The notes under the pieces were generated by a model, which was not told where the DNA came from, searched no databases, and saw only the letters and a list, made by a program, of their open reading frames with translations. The position numbers and the translations under genes were made by a program. Below are positions 2,673 through 12,790 of a stretch of 64,000 bases of DNA, one piece after another; the stretch's first letter is position 1, and each line of letters starts with the position of its first letter. This stretch comes from Alphaproteobacteria bacterium (GTDB lineage Bacteria; Pseudomonadota; Alphaproteobacteria; Puniceispirillales; Marisalimonadaceae), in assembly GCA_004213885.1 (NCBI GenBank), contig SGYL01000001.1, positions 310,001 through 374,000 of the forward strand. The letters are read 5' to 3'.

Positions 2673-3128
2673 ATGCGTTGTCCATTTTGTGGAACTGATG
2701 ATACTCAAGTAAAAGATTCAAGGGGTAGTGAAGATGGTGCTTCAATAAGACGAAGAAGATTATGTTCCAGCTGCGGATCTCGTTTTACAACATTTGAAAG
2801 AATTCAATTAAGAGAATTGATTGTTGTAAAGCGGAATGGTAAAAAAAATATTTTTGATAGAGAAAAAATTGTAAAGTCAATGGAAATAGCTCTAAGAAAA
2901 AGAAAAGTTGATAATGATGTTGTTGAAAGAGCACAAAATGGCATTGTAAGACAATTAGAATCATCGGGAGAAGTTGAAATTCAATCAGATTTAATTGGTG
3001 AGCTTGTTATGAATGCTCTAGGACAAATTGATCATGTAGCTTATATCAGATATGCATCTGTTTATAGAAACTTTAGGGAAGCGAGTGATTTTGGAAAATT
3101 TGTAAAAGATCAAATTGAAGATAATTGA
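2673..3128 (+). CDS. nrdR: Transcriptional repressor NrdR
   Basis: NrdR is a nucleotide-sensing repressor of ribonucleotide reductase genes. The 151-residue protein has the N-terminal zinc ribbon (CPFC at residues 3-6 and CSSC near 31-34) followed by RFTTFER and an ATP-cone domain (about residues 49-140, [17 protein letters not shown]). A good ribosome-binding site, TTGGAG, sits upstream of the ATG. Its place between glyA and ribD is conserved in Alphaproteobacteria. No NrdR box or nrd gene is visible in this window. Confidence 0.96.
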
Positions 3129-3141
3129 TCGTTAATAAAGT

Positions 3142-4236
3142 GTGAGTAATTCATTAAAAACATATTTTATGAAACAAGCTTTGCTTGAAGCCTATCGTGC
3201 TATGGGTACAACTGGAAAAAATCCCAATGTTGGGTGTGTTCTGGTAAAAAATAATTTTATTATCGCTAGAGCCAGAACTTCTCCAGGAGGTAGGCCACAT
3301 GCTGAAGAAAACTTGGTTTCACAATTGTCTAAGACAGAATTAAATGGTTCATCATTATTTGTTACATTAGAACCATGTGCTCATAAAGGTAAAAACGGAA
3401 CTTCTTGTGCAGAGTTAATATCGAATTCTGGTATAAAGGAAGTTTTTATTAGTAATTATGATCCAGATTTAAGAACATCTGGAAAAGGTCTAGAAATATT
3501 AAGAAAATCTAAAATTCATGTTTTCACTGATTTTTTAGTTAATGAAGGACATGATTTAAATATTGGATATTTAACTAACTTTTCATCCAATAGACCATTT
3601 GTAACTATAAAATTTGCAATAAGTTTAGATGGTAAAATTGCACTCAAAAATAAAAATTCTAAATGGATAAGTAATGAGTTGTCCAGAAATTTTGGACATA
3701 TGATAAGAGCTCAATCAGATGGGATTTTGACTACTAATTCTACAATTAAAGAAGATGACTCAATGCTTACTTGTAGATTAAATGGTTTAGAGAAATATAG
3801 TCCTTTGAAAATTATTGTTGATAGAGGATTAAAATTAAATGAAAATTATTCAATATTTAAAAATACAAAAAAAGAAAATTTAATAATTTATCATTGTTCA
3901 AATGACAAAAGTAAAATAAAAAAATATCCTAAAAATATAGATCTAGTTTATTTTAATAATAAAAAAAATTTTCTTAACTTAATTTTAAACGATTTAGCAA
4001 ATAGGAAAATAAAGAACTTGTTAATTGAAAGTGGTACAACTTTTTGTAGTGAAATGATTAAAGCTAATCTAGTTGATCAAATTGCTTTTTTCAGATCTAA
4101 TAAAATTATTGGAAATGATGGATTACCTTTTGTTAACAATTTAAGTTTAAAAAAAATATCAGATAGTATAAGTATGAAAGTCATTGATACAAAATTTTTT
4201 GATAATGATATTTATGAATTGAGGAGGTTTAATTAA
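3142..4236 (+). CDS. ribD: Bifunctional riboflavin deaminase/reductase RibD
   Basis: RibD carries out the second and third steps of riboflavin synthesis: deamination of the GTP-derived pyrimidine, then NADPH-dependent reduction of its ribosyl side chain. The N-terminal deaminase has the zinc motifs PHAEEN and PCAHKGKNGTSC. The C-terminal reductase begins near residue 150 (KFAISLDGKIAL) and includes KWISNELSRNFGH. The start is a GTG, 13 bases after nrdR. At 364 residues it is normal length. First gene of the riboflavin block ribD-ribE-ribBA-ribH. Confidence 0.95.
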   Translation: MSNSLKTYFMKQALLEAYRAMGTTGKNPNVGCVLVKNNFIIARARTSPGGRPHAEENLVSQLSKTELNGSSLFVTLEPCAHKGKNGTSCAELISNSGIKEVFISNYDPDLRTSGKGLEILRKSKIHVFTDFLVNEGHDLNIGYLTNFSSNRPFVTIKFAISLDGKIALKNKNSKWISNELSRNFGHMIRAQSDGILTTNSTIKEDDSMLTCRLNGLEKYSPLKIIVDRGLKLNENYSIFKNTKKENLIIYHCSNDKSKIKKYPKNIDLVYFNNKKNFLNLILNDLANRKIKNLLIESGTTFCSEMIKANLVDQIAFFRSNKIIGNDGLPFVNNLSLKKISDSISMKVIDTKFFDNDIYELRRFN

Positions 4237-4239
4237 CAA

Positions 4240-4857
4240 ATGTTTTCAGGAATAATTTCAGCTTTAGGCAATGTAAAAAACATAACTTATAATGATATTT
4301 ATTCAGTAGATATAGAAATCACAAAAATTAATTTAGAGGATTTTGAAAAATCAGATAATCTTATTAAAATTGGTTGTTCAATTGCTTGTTCAGGTGTCTG
4401 TTTAACTTTAACAGAAAAAAAGAATAACGTTTTAACATTTGATATAAGTAAGGAAACAATGAGTAAAACAAATCTTTCTGATTGGAAAATTGGTAGTCTA
4501 GTAAATCTAGAAAGAGCATTAAGAGTTGGAGATGAAATCGGAGGACATTTTGTCACTGGTCATGTTGATACTGTTCTTGAATTACAAAATATTATTGAGG
4601 AAGATGGATCCAAAATTTTGTTTATAAAATTAAATAAAGAAATTTCACCATATATAGCTTCTAAAGGTTCAATTACTATTGAAGGTGTTTCGCTTACTGT
4701 AAATGATGTTAAGAATGATTATTTCAATGTCAATATTATACCTTTTACGTGGGATAATACTAATTTAAGAAATATAAAAGTTAATGATTTTGTTAATGTT
4801 GAAATTGATTTACTTTCTAGGTATTTAGTTAATTATCAAAAACGGAAAGATAATTAA
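4240..4857 (+). CDS. ribE: Riboflavin synthase alpha chain
   Basis: The enzyme dismutates two molecules of 6,7-dimethyl-8-ribityllumazine into riboflavin and the pyrimidine precursor. The 205-residue protein starts MFSGIISALGNV and consists of two lumazine-binding repeats. The first carries CSIACSGVCLTL, and the second, starting around residue 98, carries GGHFVTGHVD and GSITIEGVSLTVN. It starts 3 bases after ribD and ends 1 base before the next gene, so translation is probably coupled. Some databases call this gene ribC. Confidence 0.95.
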   Translation: MFSGIISALGNVKNITYNDIYSVDIEITKINLEDFEKSDNLIKIGCSIACSGVCLTLTEKKNNVLTFDISKETMSKTNLSDWKIGSLVNLERALRVGDEIGGHFVTGHVDTVLELQNIIEEDGSKILFIKLNKEISPYIASKGSITIEGVSLTVNDVKNDYFNVNIIPFTWDNTNLRNIKVNDFVNVEIDLLSRYLVNYQKRKDN

Positions 4858-4858
4858 T

Positions 4859-5956
4859 ATGGACGTATCAAGTATTGAAGATGTTATTAAGGACGCTTCA
4901 CAAGGTAAAATTTTTATTTTAATTGATGACGAAAATAGAGAAAATGAAGGTGACCTTTGTGTTCTAGGTGATTTTGTAAATCCCAACGTAATAAATTTTA
5001 TGGCTACACATGGAAGAGGTTTAATCTGTTTAGCAATTACCAAGCAGCAATCTGATAAATTAGGATTGTCTTTGATGGAAAGAAGAAATGAATCTAGATA
5101 CGATACAGCTTTCACTCAATCAATCGAAGCAACACATGGTGTTACCACTGGAATTTCTGCATCAGATAGATCAATCACGATTAAAACTGCAATAAATGAA
5201 CAAAATAATGAAACTCATATTACGACGCCAGGGCATGTTTTTCCAATAATTGCAAGAAATGGAGGGACTTTAATTAGAGCAGGGCATACTGAAGCTATAG
5301 TTGATATTGCAAAAATTTGTGGATTAAATCCATCTGGAGTTATTTGTGAGATAATGAAAGATAACGGTGAAATGGCAAGATTGCCAGATTTGAAAAAATT
5401 TGCAAAAAAGCATGGTTTAAAAATTGGTACGATTGCAGATTTAATTTCTTATAGAAGAAAGAATGAAAATTTATTAGTGAGAACATATGAAAAACCATTT
5501 AATAGTTCAGTGACTGGATCTTGGAGAATAATAGTTTATAAAAGTTTAATAGATGAAGTGGAACATTTAGCTCTAATTAAGGGGGTAATAACTTCTAAAG
5601 ATAAAACAATGGTTAGAGTTCATTCATTTAATCCTATTGTAGATCTTTTAGAAGATTTAAATGTAGATGGTCAAAATAATTTAATTTATAAGGCAATGAA
5701 GAAAATTGACAATAATAATAGCGGTATAGTTATTATTATCAATGATTCTTATAAAGATTTCATAAGTAAAAAGTTAAAAGTTGATGAAGAAATTGAGACA
5801 AAAGATAAAAGTAATCTCCGCCAATATGGAGTTGGAGCTCAAATACTTTCTGACTTAGGTGTAAAAAACATGATTTTATTATCAAATTCTAAGAAAAAAG
5901 CTATTGGATTAAAGGGTTTTGATTTGTCTATCGTTGATTGGGAGAGATTAGATTGA
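4859..5956 (+). CDS. ribB: DHBP synthase fused to a degenerate GTP cyclohydrolase II-like domain
   Basis: The N-terminal half (about residues 1-200) is 3,4-dihydroxy-2-butanone-4-phosphate synthase, which makes the four-carbon unit for lumazine from ribulose 5-phosphate. It has DDENRENEGDL, HGRGLICL, GVTTGISASDRSITI, TPGHVFPI, GHTEAIVDIAK and the EIMKDNGEMAR segment. The C-terminal half has the size of GTP cyclohydrolase II and keeps MVRVHSF, but it lacks the zinc-binding CxxRxHSxCxTGD cysteines. It is probably not a cyclohydrolase. Proteins of this design occur in Alphaproteobacteria, so a separate ribA is expected elsewhere. The stop TGA overlaps the following TTG start. Confidence 0.92.
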   Translation: MDVSSIEDVIKDASQGKIFILIDDENRENEGDLCVLGDFVNPNVINFMATHGRGLICLAITKQQSDKLGLSLMERRNESRYDTAFTQSIEATHGVTTGISASDRSITIKTAINEQNNETHITTPGHVFPIIARNGGTLIRAGHTEAIVDIAKICGLNPSGVICEIMKDNGEMARLPDLKKFAKKHGLKIGTIADLISYRRKNENLLVRTYEKPFNSSVTGSWRIIVYKSLIDEVEHLALIKGVITSKDKTMVRVHSFNPIVDLLEDLNVDGQNNLIYKAMKKIDNNNSGIVIIINDSYKDFISKKLKVDEEIETKDKSNLRQYGVGAQILSDLGVKNMILLSNSKKKAIGLKGFDLSIVDWERLD

Positions 5957-6399
5957 TTAATAAAAAAGTTTTAATAATTATATCTAAATATTATAAAGAT
6001 ATATCTGAAAATTTATTAAAATCAGCTATTACTTTTTTAGAAGAAAATTCAATTCTTTTTGACGTTATTGAAGTACCTGGTGCTTTAGAGATACCTCAAG
6101 TGTTAAATTTTCAGGTTAATAATTCTAACAATCTAAAGCTTGCTTATGAAGGATACATTGCTTTAGGTTGTGTGATAAAAGGTGAAACTTATCATTTTGA
6201 AATTGTTAGTAATGAAACCAATAGAGGCTTAATGAATATAGCTCTTAAACATTTTTTTCCGTTAGGAAATGGTATAATTACAGCATACAATTATGATCAA
6301 GCTTTAAAAAGATCTTTGGATAAAGGAAAAGAAGCAGCAGAAGCGTGTTATGAATTAATGAAAATAATAAATTACAATAAAAAAGTTGATAAAAATTGA
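5953..6399 (+). CDS. ribH: 6,7-dimethyl-8-ribityllumazine synthase
   Basis: RibH condenses the RibD product with the RibB product to give 6,7-dimethyl-8-ribityllumazine. Motifs are VIEVPGALEIPQ, ALGCVIKGETYHFEIV (with the catalytic histidine) and PLGNGIITAYNYDQAL. The frame is open from an upstream TTG at 5938. I prefer the TTG at 5953 because GGGAG at 5940-5944 fits as its ribosome-binding site, and it overlaps the ribB stop as TTGA. That gives 148 residues, a normal length. Besides feeding riboflavin synthesis, its product is the antenna pigment known in the photolyase family found at 50-51.7 kb. Confidence 0.93.
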   Translation: MINKKVLIIISKYYKDISENLLKSAITFLEENSILFDVIEVPGALEIPQVLNFQVNNSNNLKLAYEGYIALGCVIKGETYHFEIVSNETNRGLMNIALKHFFPLGNGIITAYNYDQALKRSLDKGKEAAEACYELMKIINYNKKVDKN

Positions 6400-6845
6400 T
6401 TGACAATATTAGACACAAATCCATTAGAAAAAAAACAGCATCTAGAATTGCTGCCATTCAAATTTTATACTTACATGAATTTAATGATCAGCCTCTTTTT
6501 GAGTCTATATCAACCTACGAATTACATTATAAGAAATTTTTACTTGAAAAATTAGATATAAAAGAACTAGACACTAATTTATTATCAGACTTATTAGAGA
6601 ATTTTGATAAAAATACAAATGTTTATGATACTATTATAAAGCAAAATTTATCCAAAGATTGGAAAATTGGAAGATTAGGGAAAAATGAACTTAATATATT
6701 AAGATTATCTATTTTTGAACTTAAATTTTTTAAAAAATTTGATAAAAAAACAATTATTAATGAATATGTAAGTTTGTTTAATAATTTTTGTGGGGAACCA
6801 GACTTTGCAAATGGTTTTTTAAATAATGTCTTAAAAAGTGAATAA
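6396..6845 (+). CDS. nusB: Transcription antitermination factor NusB
   Basis: NusB binds boxA RNA with NusE (S10) and promotes antitermination of rRNA operons. The 149-residue helical protein has SRIAAIQILYLHEF near the N-terminus and WKIGRLGKNELNILRLSIFEL followed by TIINEYVSLFNNFCGEPDFANGFLNNVL, the usual C-terminal NusB pattern. The start is TTG, overlapping the ribH stop as TTGA, the same arrangement as the preceding junction. ribH-nusB-thiL is a widespread bacterial gene order. Confidence 0.93.
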   Translation: MIDNIRHKSIRKKTASRIAAIQILYLHEFNDQPLFESISTYELHYKKFLLEKLDIKELDTNLLSDLLENFDKNTNVYDTIIKQNLSKDWKIGRLGKNELNILRLSIFELKFFKKFDKKTIINEYVSLFNNFCGEPDFANGFLNNVLKSE

Positions 6846-7785
6846 TCAATTAATGGATGAGTTTGACTTAATCAAAAAATATTTTGTGCCAATTTCATCA
6901 ATCGAAAGCCAATTTTTATCCAATGATGGCGCTGTTTTTAAACCAAAAAAAGATTTAGATTATGTTGTCTCAACTGATACAATTGTTGAAAAAATTCACT
7001 TCGAAGGTAATGAACCACCTGATCAAATAGCAAAAAAAGCACTAAGAACAAATCTATCTGATTTAGCTGCAATGGGGGCTGACCCTGAATTTTATAGTTT
7101 ATCAATAAGTTTACCTAAAGCAAAATCTAAAAGTTTCATTGAAAATTTTGTAAAAGGGTTAAAAGAAGATCAAAAAAAATATAAAATTAAATTGCTCGGT
7201 GGAGATTTAACAGCTTCCTCTCAATTAATCACAATAACAATTAATATTATTGGAACTGTACCAAGTGGACAATGTATAAGTAGATCAAATTCAATGGTAA
7301 ATGACCTTTTATATGTAACAGGTGTCTTAGGTTTGTCAAATATTGGACTATTAAATTTAAGGAAAAATGATAAAAAATATTCAATTGCTAAATTAAAATA
7401 TTATTTGCCACAACCTAGGGTAGAGTTTTCTTCTTCTGTAAGAAATTTTGTAACATCAATGATTGATATCTCGGATGGATTTATTCAAGATTGTAGGCAT
7501 TTAGCTAGATTGTCAAATTTAGAGTTTGCAATTAATATCAAAAATTTACCTATTTCTGACATCGATTTGTTGTCTTATGAAGAAAGGTTGAATGCTGCAC
7601 TAATTGGAGGAGATGATTATGAACTTTTATTTACTTCACCACCTGCTCATAAAGAAAAAATCAATAAAATAGCAAAACTCCATGGATTACAAATTACAAA
7701 TATTGGCCATGTTAAAAATGGAAAAAATGGGCAGGTTACATCAAATAGCATACCTATAAATATAGGTGCATATAAACATTTTTAA
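6838..7785 (+). CDS. thiL: Thiamine-monophosphate kinase
   Basis: ThiL phosphorylates thiamine monophosphate to the active cofactor thiamine diphosphate, which pyruvate dehydrogenase (pdhA/pdhB in this window) needs. It belongs to the PurM-like ATP-binding family. Motifs are NDGAVFKP, VVSTDTIVEKIHF, LRTNLSDLAAMGA, KLLGGDLTAS, DISDGFIQD and LIGGDDYELLFT. The start is a GTG overlapping the nusB stop by 8 bases; an ATG at 6853 is the alternative. Length of 315 residues is normal. It converges with the bamE gene, their ends overlapping by 4 bases. Confidence 0.94.
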   Translation: MNNQLMDEFDLIKKYFVPISSIESQFLSNDGAVFKPKKDLDYVVSTDTIVEKIHFEGNEPPDQIAKKALRTNLSDLAAMGADPEFYSLSISLPKAKSKSFIENFVKGLKEDQKKYKIKLLGGDLTASSQLITITINIIGTVPSGQCISRSNSMVNDLLYVTGVLGLSNIGLLNLRKNDKKYSIAKLKYYLPQPRVEFSSSVRNFVTSMIDISDGFIQDCRHLARLSNLEFAINIKNLPISDIDLLSYEERLNAALIGGDDYELLFTSPPAHKEKINKIAKLHGLQITNIGHVKNGKNGQVTSNSIPINIGAYKHF

Positions 7786-8228
7786 TTTTCATTGTTTCTT
7801 CTTAAATTACTTAATAAATTTTTCAATATATCAAATGATATTCTATCATCTGCTATGGATTTTTCATTTAATTTACTTAAACTAATATTATTCGGTAAAT
7901 TTTGTTTTTTAAAACTAAACTCAACTACTTTATCATTTTCATTGTAAAAAATTTCTAAAAAACTAACTTCTTCAAATTGGTTAACATTTCCAATTTCTTT
8001 TTTCATCTTTTGAGAAATATAATAAACATTTTTTCTATCATATGGATTAATAAATGAAGGTGGACCCAGTTTTTTTAAAACAAAAGATTTTGAAGTTTCT
8101 CCTTTTTTTATGTTAATTTGATCAAATGATTTTAATGTTGGTCCATAGTTTATAATTTCTTTGTCAAAAGATAAGCTACATGATAGTAAGAGCAATACAA
8201 GATGAAGATTAAATAATTTTAAAGCCAT
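7782..8228 (-). CDS. bamE: Outer-membrane assembly lipoprotein BamE (SmpA/OmlA family)
   Basis: BamE is a small lipoprotein of the BAM complex that inserts beta-barrel proteins into the outer membrane. The 148-residue product has a short signal peptide ending in the lipobox LLLSC, so the mature protein starts at a lipidated cysteine near residue 17. The BamE core is recognisable in INIKKGETSKSFVLKKLGPP followed by YDRKNVYYISQKM. The C-terminal 40 residues are less conserved. Its start codon is only 8 bases from the divergent start of the next gene, so its promoter must lie inside that gene. Confidence 0.85.
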   Translation of the reverse strand: MALKLFNLHLVLLLLSCSLSFDKEIINYGPTLKSFDQINIKKGETSKSFVLKKLGPPSFINPYDRKNVYYISQKMKKEIGNVNQFEEVSFLEIFYNENDKVVEFSFKKQNLPNNISLSKLNEKSIADDRISFDILKNLLSNLRRNNEN

Positions 8229-8236
8229 TTTAGTTT

Positions 8237-8764
8237 ATGTTTTTTAAAAAAAAAAAATATGAAAAAGTATCCATTGATATTTATCAGAAAATAGTAAATA
8301 TTTCTAGAAATAAAATCTTTTATACCAAGTATAATGTTCCAGATACAATTGATGGAAGATTTGATATGCTTGTATTAATAACTATTATTGTTGTGCATAG
8401 ATTATCAAAAATAAAAAATGAAGGTACAGAATTATCACAAAAGATATTTGATATTGTGTTTAAAGACTTAGATTATTCTTTAAGAGAGTTAGGTGCTGGA
8501 GATGTGTCTGTCGCAAATAACATGAAAAAATTTATATCTTCATATATGGGAAGGCAAAAAGTTTATGTTAAATCTTTTAAAAGTGAAGATGAAAAGTTTT
8601 TAGCATTAGCTTTCAAAAACAATATATTTCGAAATAAAGACCAAAATAAAAAATTAATATTATTATTATCAAAAAATATTTTTATGATTAATAAACAACT
8701 TCATTTGATTGAAGATAAAAAAATGCTTAATGGAGACTTTGATTTTTCTATTAGTCTTTTATAA
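8237..8764 (+). CDS. Ubiquinol-cytochrome c reductase chaperone family protein (Cbp3-like)
   Basis: This belongs to the ubiquinol-cytochrome c chaperone family (Cbp3/UQCC1 in mitochondria), which helps cytochrome bc1 complex assembly; the bacterial role is inferred from the family. The 175-residue protein has DGRFDMLVLITIIVVHRL, then LSQKIFDIVFKDLDYSLRELGAGDVSVANNM and YMGRQKVY, a characteristic run. The order bamE (divergent)-this gene-plsX is typical of Alphaproteobacteria. There a DUF177 gene and often rpmF intervene before plsX, but here only 67 bases separate them. No signal peptide is seen, so it should act in the cytoplasm. Confidence 0.85.
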   Translation: MFFKKKKYEKVSIDIYQKIVNISRNKIFYTKYNVPDTIDGRFDMLVLITIIVVHRLSKIKNEGTELSQKIFDIVFKDLDYSLRELGAGDVSVANNMKKFISSYMGRQKVYVKSFKSEDEKFLALAFKNNIFRNKDQNKKLILLLSKNIFMINKQLHLIEDKKMLNGDFDFSISLL

Positions 8765-8831
8765 AATACTATGTTGCAATGTTTCATTCTAACTGATAAA
8801 AGTCATCAATTAATATAATTTCGGAGTTTTT

Positions 8832-9848
8832 TTGAAAAAAATTAAGATATCATTAGATGCAATGGGTGGAGACCATGCTCCTGAAATTGTTGTTCAAGGT
8901 GCAGCTGAGGCTAAGTTAAGATACCCTGATATTGATTTTATTTTTTTTGGTAATAAAAAAGTTTTAATTCCATTAATAGATAGTAAGCTTGCATTATCTG
9001 AATCAGAAATTGTGCATACCATCGAGTTTATTAAACCAAATGATAAACCAAGTAATGTAATAAGAAGAGGCGCAAATACATCAATGGCACTTGCCATAAA
9101 ATCAGTAAAAAATCACTCAAGCGCAATGGTCTCAGCTGGTAATACAGGTGCTTTAATGGCATTCTCAAAACTTTTTTTAAAAACAATTTCAGGTATTAGT
9201 AGACCTGCAATAGCTGCATGTTTTCCAACAAAAAAAGGTGAAGTTTGTATGCTAGATTTGGGAGCAAATATTGAATGTGATAAAAATAATTTAATACAAT
9301 TTGCATTAATGGGACAAGCTTTTGCTAAAATTGTAATAGGTATAAAAAACCCTAAGGTAAGTTTACTTAATATTGGTGAAGAAGAAATTAAAGGCTTAAG
9401 TTATATACAAGAAGCCTCAGAGATTTTAAAAAATTTGAGTAAAATTATTAATTATTGTGGTTATGTCGAAGGTGACAGAATAACTGACGGGTTAGTTGAT
9501 GTAATAGTAACTGATGGGTTTACAGGCAATATAGCTCTAAAAACGGCAGAAGGAACTGCAAGTTTCTTTACAAATTCTCTGAAAGAATCATTAAAAAAAT
9601 CAATTTTCTCTAAATTAGGTTATTTTTTAGCAAAAAAATCATTAGAAGGATTTAGGGCACATATGGACCCTAGAAAGTATAATGGTGCAGTATTTTTAGG
9701 TCTAAATGGAGTTGTTGTTAAAAGTCATGGAGGAACTGATTCTTTTGGGTTTGCAAATGCTATTGGTGTTGCTTATGATATGGCAAAATATAACTTTATT
9801 GAAGACTTGAAGAAAAAATTATCTATAACAACAAAACATCTTATTTAA
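8832..9848 (+). CDS. plsX: Phosphate acyltransferase PlsX
   Basis: PlsX converts acyl-ACP to acyl-phosphate, the donor for PlsY in phospholipid synthesis. The 338-residue protein has ISLDAMGGDHAPEIVV at the start, SAGNTGALMA, VDVIVTDGFTGNIALKT and GLNGVVVKSHG near the end. The start is a TTG at 8832 with CGGAG 5 bases upstream; no ATG fits the conserved N-terminus. Its stop overlaps the fabH start (TAATG), linking it to fatty-acid initiation. Confidence 0.95.
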   Translation: MKKIKISLDAMGGDHAPEIVVQGAAEAKLRYPDIDFIFFGNKKVLIPLIDSKLALSESEIVHTIEFIKPNDKPSNVIRRGANTSMALAIKSVKNHSSAMVSAGNTGALMAFSKLFLKTISGISRPAIAACFPTKKGEVCMLDLGANIECDKNNLIQFALMGQAFAKIVIGIKNPKVSLLNIGEEEIKGLSYIQEASEILKNLSKIINYCGYVEGDRITDGLVDVIVTDGFTGNIALKTAEGTASFFTNSLKESLKKSIFSKLGYFLAKKSLEGFRAHMDPRKYNGAVFLGLNGVVVKSHGGTDSFGFANAIGVAYDMAKYNFIEDLKKKLSITTKHLI

Positions 9849-10846
9849 TGAATTCAAAGTTTCAAATTTTATTAACAGGTGTTGGTTCTTATCTTCCAAA
9901 AAAAAAGACATCTAATTATGATTTAGAAAAGTTCATGGATACTTCAGATGAATGGATTAGAAAAAGAACTGGTATAAAGTTTAGACATTTTGTTGAAGAT
10001 AATGAATTAACCTCAGATATGGGAACCAATGCTGCTCAATTAGCCATTTTTAACGCTGGTTTAAAACCCAAGGATATTGACTTAATAATTCTTGCGACAA
10101 CAACGCCAGATAATACTTTTCCTTCTACAGCGTCTAAAATTCAAAAAAATCTAGGATGCAAAGCAATTTCATTTGATATTCAAGCAGTTTGTGCAGGTTT
10201 TATTTATGCAATCTCTATTGGAGTTGCAATGCTTAAAGATACTCATGGAAAAAAATGTTTAATTATTGGCGCAGATAGCATGTCCAAAATATTAGATTGG
10301 AGTGATAGATCAACATCAGTTCTATTTGGAGATGGTGCTGGAGCTGTTGTTTTAGAAAAAAAAATTGTAAGAAATGAAACTTTTGAAACTGATCAATGGG
10401 GTGTTTTAGCAACTAAAATTTTTACTGATGGTGAATATTATGATCTTTTAAGTACTGATGGAGGTGTTTCAAAAAATAAAAGTACTGGCTTTCTTAGAAT
10501 GAATGGAAAAGAAATCTTTAAACATGCAGCTGAAAAATTGTCCTCATCACTTTTAATGTGTTTAGAGGAATGTAACATGAATATAAATGATTTGGATTGG
10601 CTAATTCCTCATCAAGCTAATCAAAGGATAATTAATGCTGTATCTAATAAAGTTAAAATACCTCAAGATAAAATAATAAGCACTATATCTAATCATGGTA
10701 ATACATCTGCCGCATCAATACCTTTAGCTTTAGATGTAGCAATTAAGACAGGTAATATAAAAAATGGTGATATTTTAGCCTTACAAGCTATAGGTGGAGG
10801 GCTTTCTTGGGGGACTTTAATTTTAAAAATAGGAAATCCAGATTAA
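9848..10846 (+). CDS. fabH: Beta-ketoacyl-ACP synthase III
   Basis: FabH starts fatty-acid synthesis by condensing acetyl-CoA with malonyl-ACP. The 332-residue thiolase-fold protein has the full catalytic triad: Cys115 in QAVCAGF, His255 in IPHQANQRI and Asn285 in NHGNTSAAS. The last glycine-rich strand is ALQAIGGGLSWGTLIL. It is translationally coupled to plsX and followed by ihfA. Length and motifs are standard. Confidence 0.96.
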   Translation: MNSKFQILLTGVGSYLPKKKTSNYDLEKFMDTSDEWIRKRTGIKFRHFVEDNELTSDMGTNAAQLAIFNAGLKPKDIDLIILATTTPDNTFPSTASKIQKNLGCKAISFDIQAVCAGFIYAISIGVAMLKDTHGKKCLIIGADSMSKILDWSDRSTSVLFGDGAGAVVLEKKIVRNETFETDQWGVLATKIFTDGEYYDLLSTDGGVSKNKSTGFLRMNGKEIFKHAAEKLSSSLLMCLEECNMNINDLDWLIPHQANQRIINAVSNKVKIPQDKIISTISNHGNTSAASIPLALDVAIKTGNIKNGDILALQAIGGGLSWGTLILKIGNPD

Positions 10847-11544: not shown

Positions 11545-11621
11545 CGGGTTATAGCGCAGCTTGGTAGCGCATCCGTCTGGGGGGCGGAAGGTCGCAGGTT
11601 CAAATCCTGCTAACCCGACCA
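11545..11621 (+). tRNA. tRNA-Pro (anticodon GGG)
   Basis: A 77-base cloverleaf with an encoded CCA end. The acceptor stem pairs CGGGTTA (11545-11551) with TAACCCG (11611-11617). The D-arm contains GCGCAGCTTGGTAGCGC, the anticodon stem pairs TCCGT with GCGGA around the loop CTGGGGG (anticodon GGG), and the T-arm has GCAGGTTCAAATCCTGC. Discriminator A is followed by CCA. The last 12 bases recur at 12569-12580, marking the gene as the attachment site of a small island. Confidence 0.96.
11610..11621 (+). repeat. Direct repeat, tRNA-side attachment core (attL-like)
   Basis: The 12 bases CTAACCCGACCA form the 3' acceptor strand and CCA tail of tRNA-Pro. The identical sequence occurs once more at 12569-12580. 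A GC-rich 12-mer repeated within 1 kb of such AT-rich DNA is unlikely to be chance. Confidence 0.65.
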
Positions 11622-11651
11622 GAAATCGTATTGTCGAATCCCTTATCAGAC

Positions 11652-11667
11652 AACATTCTGCAATGTT
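11652..11667. other. Small hairpin downstream of tRNA-Pro
   Basis: AACATT (11652-11657) pairs with AATGTT (11662-11667) around the loop CTGC. No T-run follows, so it is not a convincing terminator. It may be part of the attachment region of the island. Confidence 0.35.
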
Positions 11668-11685
11668 TCTCACAAATTTTAAGTG

Positions 11686-11777
11686 GACTGTAGAGGACTG
11701 TAGAGGACATTAGCAACGCAAGTTGCGTTATTAACGCAAGTTTTAGGGTATTAACAACGCAAGTTTTTGCCTCTACA
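11686..11777. repeat. Cluster of short repeats at the left end of the island
   Basis: Two tandem copies of GACTGTAGAG (11686-11695, 11696-11705) are followed by three copies of AACGCAAGTT (11715-11724, 11733-11742, 11756-11765). The first AACGCAAGTT copy is part of a perfect 7+1+7 palindrome, AACGCAAgTTGCGTT (11715-11729). CCTCTACA at 11770-11777 is the reverse complement of TGTAGAGG in the tandem units. This layout resembles arm-type recombinase or excisionase binding sites, but that role is inference. Confidence 0.6.
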
Positions 11778-11874
11778 AATATTTAGATATTTTAATTAAA
11801 TTTTACAAAATTACTTATTAATCTTATAATCTTTAAAATATATTTTTTTAAATTAACTTTTAGGATTTATAACT

Positions 11875-12471
11875 TTGTTCACAAATGACGATGACAAATT
11901 TGTAGAAGAAATACAATCACGCGATAATGTCTTTTATCAATGTGTCGAAATTATTAATGAAAAAATTTCAAGAATTCTTTGGGCTTCAAAAACTTTGCTT
12001 GGTTACTCTGATGATTTTTATAAAATAAAAACTGAGGTGAATTTTAATTATATAAATTTTCGTTCAACTTATTCTATTTTGAGTGCAATTTTTCGTTATA
12101 GACTTAATAGAATGTCACTTTTTGAAGATGATGAAACAAAAATCCTAGATACATGGAAAGATTGGATAAGGACAGAAATTGATAAATGGTTTGATAACGA
12201 CCCAAGGTTTATCAAAACATTTTTAAGATTTTCTAATGAAAAAGAGATAGATATAAATATTTTAAATGAAAGATTGTTAGATAAATATAGTGAAATTCCC
12301 TGGCACAAAGATGTTTTAAATGAATTCATTGATAAAGATGAAGATGACTTAGAAGAAGAAAATCTTGGATCTTATTGTATTTGTTTTAAAAAAAATAGAT
12401 CTCCTTGTGGTATTTTGCCTTGTATGACAATGGCTGAGGAAAGTGCAAAAAAGGGAGTGTTCTTGGAATAA
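11875..12471 (+). CDS. Hypothetical protein carried by the tRNA-Pro island
   Basis: I do not recognise this 198-residue protein. The start is a TTG at 11875 with AGGA about 10 bases upstream. The product is soluble, acidic and probably helical, rich in Asp, Glu, Lys and aromatic residues, with no signal peptide or membrane segment. The C-terminus has a run of acidic residues (DKDEDDLEEEN) and then four cysteines within about 20 residues: YCICFKKNRSPCGILPC. These could bind metal, though spacing matches no zinc motif I can name. It is the only gene between the two att-like repeats. The long open frame in AT-rich DNA supports a real gene. Confidence 0.65.
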   Translation: MFTNDDDKFVEEIQSRDNVFYQCVEIINEKISRILWASKTLLGYSDDFYKIKTEVNFNYINFRSTYSILSAIFRYRLNRMSLFEDDETKILDTWKDWIRTEIDKWFDNDPRFIKTFLRFSNEKEIDINILNERLLDKYSEIPWHKDVLNEFIDKDEDDLEEENLGSYCICFKKNRSPCGILPCMTMAEESAKKGVFLE

Positions 12472-12496
12472 ATTACTTTGATTTAACCCAACTAAC

Positions 12497-12506
12497 AACG
12501 CAAGTT
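12497..12506. repeat. Fourth AACGCAAGTT repeat, right side of island
   Basis: The 14 bases TAACAACGCAAGTT at 12493-12506 exactly match 11752-11765 at the left end. Repeats thus flank the island's gene on both sides. Confidence 0.6.
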
Positions 12507-12568
12507 AATTTGTTGATTTGCTCTACAGACATTGTTTTTATTAAATAAATTTTTATGCTTGTACCTTA

Positions 12569-12580
12569 CTAACCCGACCA
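12569..12580 (+). repeat. Direct repeat, distal attachment core (attR-like)
   Basis: CTAACCCGACCA repeats the last 12 bases of tRNA-Pro (11610-11621). Upstream of it there is no T-arm or other tRNA sequence, so this is a partial 3' duplicate and not a second tRNA gene. Confidence 0.65.
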
Positions 12581-12790
12581 TAAAATTTTTAGACATCTTT
12601 TTATAGAAATTTTAAATATTTATAATGTTAGAGGGTCATTTATTTAATGCTTAATTGTAAATAAATAAAGCCAATAAAAGTTATTTTGTTTTAATCATAT
12701 ATATTAATAGTAAAATTTCCAAATAATGTACTAGCAAATTTCTATGTAATCATATAAATGTGAAGATTAAATTTTAAGGATAGATGATTT

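Follow-up and report, generated by a model that had tools for sequence, protein, structure and literature searches.

The 947-bp insert downstream of tRNA-Pro(GGG) in the window (the whole 64,000-nucleotide stretch analyzed here, from a draft genome that we infer to belong to the SAR116 cluster) is best explained as the attP arms of a temperate SAR116 phage, devoid of the integrase, enclosing a one-gene cargo and brought in by a phage integrase. We regard this explanation as quite probable. The structure of the insert, the phage origin of its arms, and the insertion itself are well supported, and the sequence comparisons presented below indicate that the unit was probably still mobile once the integrase had been lost.

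Table 1. Features of the insertion at tRNA-Pro(GGG), in window coordinates
Feature	Position	Strand	Evidence or remark
tRNA-Pro(GGG), attachment gene, left intact	11545..11621	+	ARAGORN
Left core (attL), CTAACCCGACCA, equal to the tRNA 3' end	11610..11621	+	
Left arm (LE), homologue of the integrase side of phage attP	11622..11768	+	BLAST, alignment, arm order
Two direct repeats CTGTAGAGGA	11688..11707	+	Near-constant in phages (sequence, alignment)
Three ACGCAAGTT copies, at 11716, 11734, and 11757	11716..11765	+	
Promoter-like TTTACA-17-TATAAT	11802..11830	+	11 of 12 consensus matches
Cargo gene, 198 aa, TTG start	11875..12471	+	No phage or integrase similarity found
Right arm (RE), homologue of the other side of phage attP	12484..12568	+	BLAST, alignment, order
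ACGCAAGTT copy in the right arm	12498-12506	+	
Right core (attR), where the tRNA-Pro 3' end recurs	12569..12580	+	
Native tRNA-Pro downstream flank	12581..12790	+	Directly 3' of the tRNA in three relatives

An earlier note on this DNA had drawn attention to the last 12 bases of tRNA-Pro, which it saw recurring 959 bases downstream with short repeats and one unrecognized gene in between, and each of these observations holds. The two copies of CTAACCCGACCA are 959 bases apart, with a match that extends to 15 of 16 bases, and the draft genome (1.41 Mb, 84% complete) contains no further exact copy, the count being two on the forward strand and none on the reverse; the same pattern read backwards, used as a control, gave counts of 0 and 1. 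The insert has only one longer ORF, that of the 198-aa cargo protein. All four copies of ACGCAAGTT in the 64-kb window lie within the insert, as opposed to a mean of 0.14 in shuffled windows, none of 100 of which reached a count of four. The right arm includes a conserved GATTTGCTCTACAGACATTG block, and the CTGTAGAGGA repeats of the left arm are putative excisionase or accessory sites.

Comparison of seven tRNA-Pro loci of the same genus (L006 to L012) revealed empty sites in three of them (L006, L007, and L008), with 262/290, 277/304, and 283/306 identical aligned columns across the join (90 to 92.5%); the MerR neighbor in these genomes is 92 to 97% identical to that of the window. The insertion in the window is therefore real, since tRNA-Pro is joined straight to the sequence equivalent to 12581 in three genomes of the genus. 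This empty site is the one by which the earlier note had proposed to check for integration, and the other sign that it named, different cargo between the same repeats, has its match in G006 (L009; also L060), where the same tRNA bears a different insert with similar ends, 323 bp long and without an ORF of 60 aa. Integration of the tyrosine recombinase type at a tRNA 3' end, by an element that itself has no integrase, is thus supported: empty sites exist and no integrase was found. Among the remaining loci, L010 has merely a short left-arm-like trace, judged by eye, and in L011 and L012 the flanks are diverged and no arm was recognized. The converse situation, at another tRNA, also speaks for this process: tRNA-Arg(TCG) of G006 bears a 2.4-kb insert that is absent from the window's own genome, and when the G006 flanks are joined, the empty tRNA-Arg site of the latter aligns with them gap-free with 301/308 identical positions, versus 201/289 for the unjoined flanks used as a control. 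In other families of the order, tRNA-Pro(GGG) is followed by integrase-like genes (L028 and L032, from reading the sequence) or by other genes (L030), suggesting that insertions may have occurred repeatedly at this tRNA.

What goes beyond the earlier note is that the ends of the insert correspond to the two halves of a temperate phage attP. A 19-base word from the left end matches six viral contigs and four genome contigs, and two further arm words raise the number of viral contigs to 12. By BLAST, the left end of the insert is 82 to 93% identical to the first six viral contigs over 122 to 151 bases; with respect to L044, the left arm is 94% and the right arm 85% identical. In all 12 viral contigs, a stretch of about 230 bp contains the right arm, then the core, and then the left arm, which is the order of a phage attP, and in 11 of the 12 an integrase gene coding for 361 to 368 aa ends just past the left arm, the twelfth (L043) being cut where the integrase would stand. 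Taken together, the arm order and the integrase context indicate that the window insert consists of attP arms in the integrated order, with one gene replacing the phage genome. Arm models for profile searches (R1 for the left arm and R2 for the right) were built with the window sequence included, and their scores are not independent for the many units that went into them.

Contig L044 has an integrase gene that, with the next two genes, matches the PHROG families integrase, excisionase, and repressor, and a virion-type gene was also identified in it; the other viral contigs have similar ORFs in the same order, as judged by eye. The ten other phage integrases are 62 to 95% identical to that of L044. 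These phages are distantly related to Microcystis phage Mae-Yong1326-1 (28% identity for the integrase and 34% for a protein annotated as a transglycosylase), and the longest of their contigs, at 42.6 kb, may be incomplete. In L046, a very long gene (positions 2773-10266; about 2,400 to 2,500 aa) lies beside the attP, and its C terminus resembles a protein annotated as a transglycosylase. The phage cores correspond to the 3' end of tRNA-Arg(TCG) in 10 of the 12 contigs and of tRNA-Pro(TGG) in two; none of the 12 has a tRNA-Pro(GGG) core, and an exact-pattern search of viral contigs for this core followed by the left arm returned none. Two viral contigs with a tRNA-Pro(GGG) core behind an ATAAATT word were rejected, as neither has either arm. 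Among the 58 genomes of the family, we found no prophage of an arm-bearing phage: none of them matched a virion gene fragment, in a search run without a positive control, and the only integrases, found in 31 of them, are distant, with at most 34% identity over part of their length.

The short repeats of the arms vary in sequence among the phages. In seven of 11 phages (L044, L045, L048, L053, L054, L056, and L057), the phage's own repeat word is confined to the attP within the available sequence, while in L046, L047, L055, and L058 it also occurs elsewhere. The integrases of L044 and L046, which differ in their repeats, have 18 differing columns, 13 of them within the first 37, and those of L047 and L048, again with different repeats, have 17, of which 16 fall within the first 37. 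Across the 11 phages, repeat distance tracks integrase residues 1 to 45 (Mantel r of 0.48; permutation P of 0.0016) but not the other segments of the protein (r of 0.03 to 0.07; P of 0.30 to 0.38), a test that covers 11 sequences and segments picked after the alignment had been viewed. L045 and L048 fit poorly, in that their repeats differ despite only three differences in the first 37 residues. In integrases of the lambda type, the N-terminal domain binds arm-type sites. By analogy, the variable repeats, including ACGCAAGTT, are probably arm-type sites for the N-terminal domain of the phage integrase. On this reading, the window unit would be addressed to an L044-type integrase and its counterpart in G024 to an L045-type one. 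In the G006 tRNA-Arg unit, the left arm is of one repeat type and the right arm of another.

The counterpart in G024, a genome of another genus, bears on mobility. The earlier note had identified no comparable one-gene element, and G024 supplies one: its cargo protein is 88% identical to that of the window and the gene 93% identical in DNA, and the similarity runs from the left arm into the right arm with 818 of 924 aligned columns identical, in genomes whose MerR proteins are 48% identical to each other. The core copies in G024 form a 16-base repeat of the tRNA-Arg type that differs from the window's core, and no tRNA gene was found within the 19.9 kb examined around the unit. The left arms of the two units are 74 to 78% identical and the right arms 69 to 73%, whereas the G024 left arm is 89% identical to that of phage L047 and its right arm 83% identical to that of L045. 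As the arms are closer to phages than to each other, the same cargo has been joined to two types of phage arm. An integrase gene beside the G024 unit was considered as part of it and rejected, since it lies outside the right core and has upstream repeats of its own, TTTGACACAG, as seen by eye.

Profile searches recovered the left arm in 12 of 136 genomes of the order and right-arm matches, many of them weak, in 19 of 58 family genomes. Eleven units possess both arms and range from 323 to 3,531 bp. Besides those of the window at tRNA-Pro(GGG) and of G024, they comprise two in G006, at tRNA-Pro(GGG) and tRNA-Arg(TCG); three in G018, of which two form a tandem that starts 3.7 kb beyond tRNA-Arg and one is at tRNA-Pro(TGG); one each in G071 and G036 at tRNA-Pro(TGG); and one each in G090 and G092 at tRNA-Leu(GAG). 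Eight of the 11 lie directly 3' of tRNA-Pro, tRNA-Arg, or tRNA-Leu, and six have a clear core duplicate of 10 to 19 bases; the right core is decayed in G071 and G036, and unrecognizable in the two tandem units of G018, while the G092 unit runs past the end of its contig. The right arm is weak or decayed in the first G018 unit (19 bits) and in G071, G036, G090, and G092 (24 to 33 bits). The set leaves out one-armed units (L062, the second unit of L063, L119, L120, L121, L122, and L123), a weak left arm in G047 (20.7 bits), and right-arm matches of about 21 to 26 bits that we counted as chance or unrelated (G063, G027, G076, G074, G032, G030, G026, G023, G034, G029, a second one in G036, and a reverse-strand one in G006).

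No complete integrase was detected in any of the 11 units by searching with 13 integrases and comparing the main ORFs with Pfam. The G090 unit retains, beside its left arm, a 51-residue stump of an integrase C terminus that is 65% identical to that of a phage integrase, which shows that prophage deletion gave rise to one unit at least. Apart from this stump and the arms, 64 frames compared with 139,652 bases of fragmentary phage sequence showed no likeness. The nine units other than those of the window and G024 carry different cargo or none, including a macro-domain protein; a BKACE enzyme with TIM-barrel isomerase-like and cupin proteins; a dimethylformamidase-like protein; a TPR-methyltransferase; and a binding protein with two permeases. 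Two genomes of genus g2 have the same cluster, of a binding protein and two permeases, after tRNA-Pro(TGG) (L118, 1522-3687, and L123, 9343-11507); its right end is decayed in L118, and a search for a right arm in L123 found none. In G018, the stretch between tRNA-Arg and the first recognized arm (L061, 2066-5800) holds several small genes without a recognized arm at its limits and is possibly an older unit.

The 198-aa cargo protein of the window has no match above the cutoff in Pfam (best E value of 0.034) or in PHROGs (0.071), none in PADLOC, NCBIfam, or PDB sequences, and none in phage records. It was likewise not found in viral contigs, where three peptide-pattern matches all failed confirmation and an exact 42-base pattern had no hit. 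Among 385 genomes of the class, it is present in the window's own alone, and among 58 of the family, in that genome and G024. Structure prediction from the two sequences gave no usable fold (mean pLDDT of 41). The dN/dS ratio between them is 0.34 to 0.49 by three methods and their sole indel preserves the frame, on the basis of which the gene is probably under selection. The hexamers and spacing of the upstream TTTACA-17-TATAAT element are identical in the G024 copy; such sites are expected by chance in AT-rich DNA, and the region has two promoter-like sites versus a mean of 6.9 in shuffles.

On the basis of these observations, we propose that the units began as prophages stripped of almost everything between the arms and that they either carry or have taken up host-type genes. 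The integrase would come from a phage, whether infecting or resident, and for the window unit would have L044-type specificity as read from the arm repeats; acting in trans, or from a phage integrated in tandem, it would recombine the core, both inserting and excising the unit, and transfer would occur with the phage. The unit could arrive as a small circle with an attP or, alternatively, in tandem with a phage genome in the same particle, about 1 kb extra being little for a phage with contigs of up to 42.6 kb. As no lysogen was found in the 58 family genomes, the helper may meet the unit mainly at infection, or it may rarely be captured in drafts. Presence of the window unit's copy in another genus is an argument that movement continued without the unit's own integrase. 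Counting against this account are the G090 stump, which reflects prophage decay; the failure to find a phage with a tRNA-Pro(GGG) core or the cargo among the viral contigs, or a prophage in the family genomes; and the fact that a core duplicate is clear in only six of the 11 units. A broader scenario, which we offer tentatively and with some doubt, is that SAR116 bacteria have a gene-cassette system, run by phage integrases, in which integrase-less units of 0.3 to 3.5 kb, each with cargo between a left and a right arm, insert and stack at tRNAs and ride on temperate phages. They would do so as passengers joined to the phage genome and small enough for its capsid, with the arm repeats serving as an address for the integrase type set by its N-terminal domain, and the same cargo could change its helper by changing its arms.

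The main alternative to later movement is that the insert is an immobile remnant of a prophage: a phage with the 198-aa gene beside its attP integrated, the rest was deleted, and the unit never moved since. The earlier note had left the choice between a remnant and a minimal satellite; its description of the element as integrase-less stands, and as to the choice, G090 clearly represents a deleted prophage while the G024 copy argues for later movement. Decay is indeed evident in the integrase stump of the G090 tRNA-Leu unit and in the decayed right arms or cores of several relatives, and CIMEs (discussed below) are described as products of decay (PMC5704250). However, a remnant would need two matching deletions, because the units in the two genera share the same inner limits but have different cores and arm types; moreover, the interiors of the window and G024 units have no coding similarity to the 139,652 bases of fragmentary phage sequence, and neither the peptide patterns nor the one 42-base pattern detected the cargo among viral contigs. 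We consider this alternative unlikely.

Two further alternatives dispense with a phage integrase acting on the unit. The cargo could have spread by homologous recombination between existing arm-flanked remnants, without site-specific movement, which would account for the arms of the window and G024 differing more than the cargo. The mixed arm types of the G006 tRNA-Arg unit indicate that arms and cargo do recombine, and the cargo-free two-armed unit at the G006 tRNA-Pro would be a possible recipient. Yet in the genomes nearest to that of the window the site is cleanly empty, with no remnant left in it, and the core around the G024 copy is a different one, so that we see recombination of this kind as quite improbable. 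A resident chromosomal integrase, either the DUF6538-type enzyme at tRNA-Arg or XerC/D, might instead have moved the unit: the draft genome encodes a 379-aa DUF6538-type tyrosine recombinase and a second, XerC/D-like one, and integrases resembling the former were read just outside two units (L059 and L124). Here, the single left arm of the window's genome is at the element and not beside the DUF6538-type integrase, and the arms match phage attPs with an adjoining integrase in all 11 contigs that are long enough, making this a very remote prospect. As for these genes themselves, the DUF6538-type integrase of the window's genome is intact and follows tRNA-Arg(TCG) (L127, 702-1995, contig C8); its homologue in G006 ends early, at 313 aa (L059, 4018-4959); and the one outside the right arm of the G090 tRNA-Leu unit, which resembles this type, is split into two adjacent frames (L124, 7507-8646).

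Among known systems, the units are comparable to CIMEs (cis-mobilizable elements, derived from ICEs or IMEs), in which integration and transfer genes have been lost and attL and attR kept (PMC5704250), and the best reading of the units is that, by form, they are phage-derived counterparts of these ICE-derived elements. CIMEs are mobilized in cis once a full element has accreted. Like a CIME, the window unit retains attL and attR (a core duplicate and both arms) and has no integration or transfer genes that could be found (13 integrases gave no match); CIMEs may also form tandems at one site (PMC5704250), comparable to the tandem arm-flanked units of G018. The window unit differs in that its arms derive from a phage attP rather than from an ICE or IME, and the units differ in carrying one gene or none as cargo and in having arms of several specificities. 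With defective or grounded prophages, they share flanking phage att arms and, in G090, an integrase stump; they differ in that host-type or other cargo replaces the phage genes, in that one unit occurs in two genera at different sites, and in that the 947-bp unit has no phage structural or replication genes. Tycheposons are small, tRNA-flanked cargo islands of marine bacteria that typically have their own tyrosine recombinase. The units are likewise small, tRNA flanked, cargo bearing, and marine, but they are without a recombinase of their own and their arms are those of phage attPs. They would depend on a phage as do the satellites (PICI, PICMI, P4-like elements, and PLE), which are also small integrated units and are packaged in helper particles. 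However, a phage satellite is described as being 7 to 20 kb long and having an integrase (PMC13376191), whereas no integrase, regulator, or replication gene was found in the units. Lastly, integron cassettes and CALINs consist of single genes with recombination sites, in arrays, with the integrase acting in trans (PMC11389934). The units would also be moved in trans, if our inference holds, but their flanks are accounted for by two phage att arms and a tRNA core, whereas the sites of cassettes are attC.

Among the best-ranked open-license papers, titles and opening lines of abstracts contain no earlier report of such units in SAR116, and a term search of the main text of a SAR116 genomics paper (PMC8547437) did not find integrase. 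A 2024 review expects a phage and an element integrated into it to be transferred jointly rarely or never, since only a very small element would leave the cointegrate short enough for the phage particle (PMC11389934); the units are of such a size that joint transfer can be tested. In the biology of this marine clade, they would explain the presence of host-type genes beside tRNAs without an integrase, namely, those for an ABC transporter binding protein and permeases, a beta-keto acid cleavage enzyme, a dimethylformamidase-like protein, and a TPR-methyltransferase, and the covariation of repeats and integrases suggests that the match between an element and its helper phage is readable.
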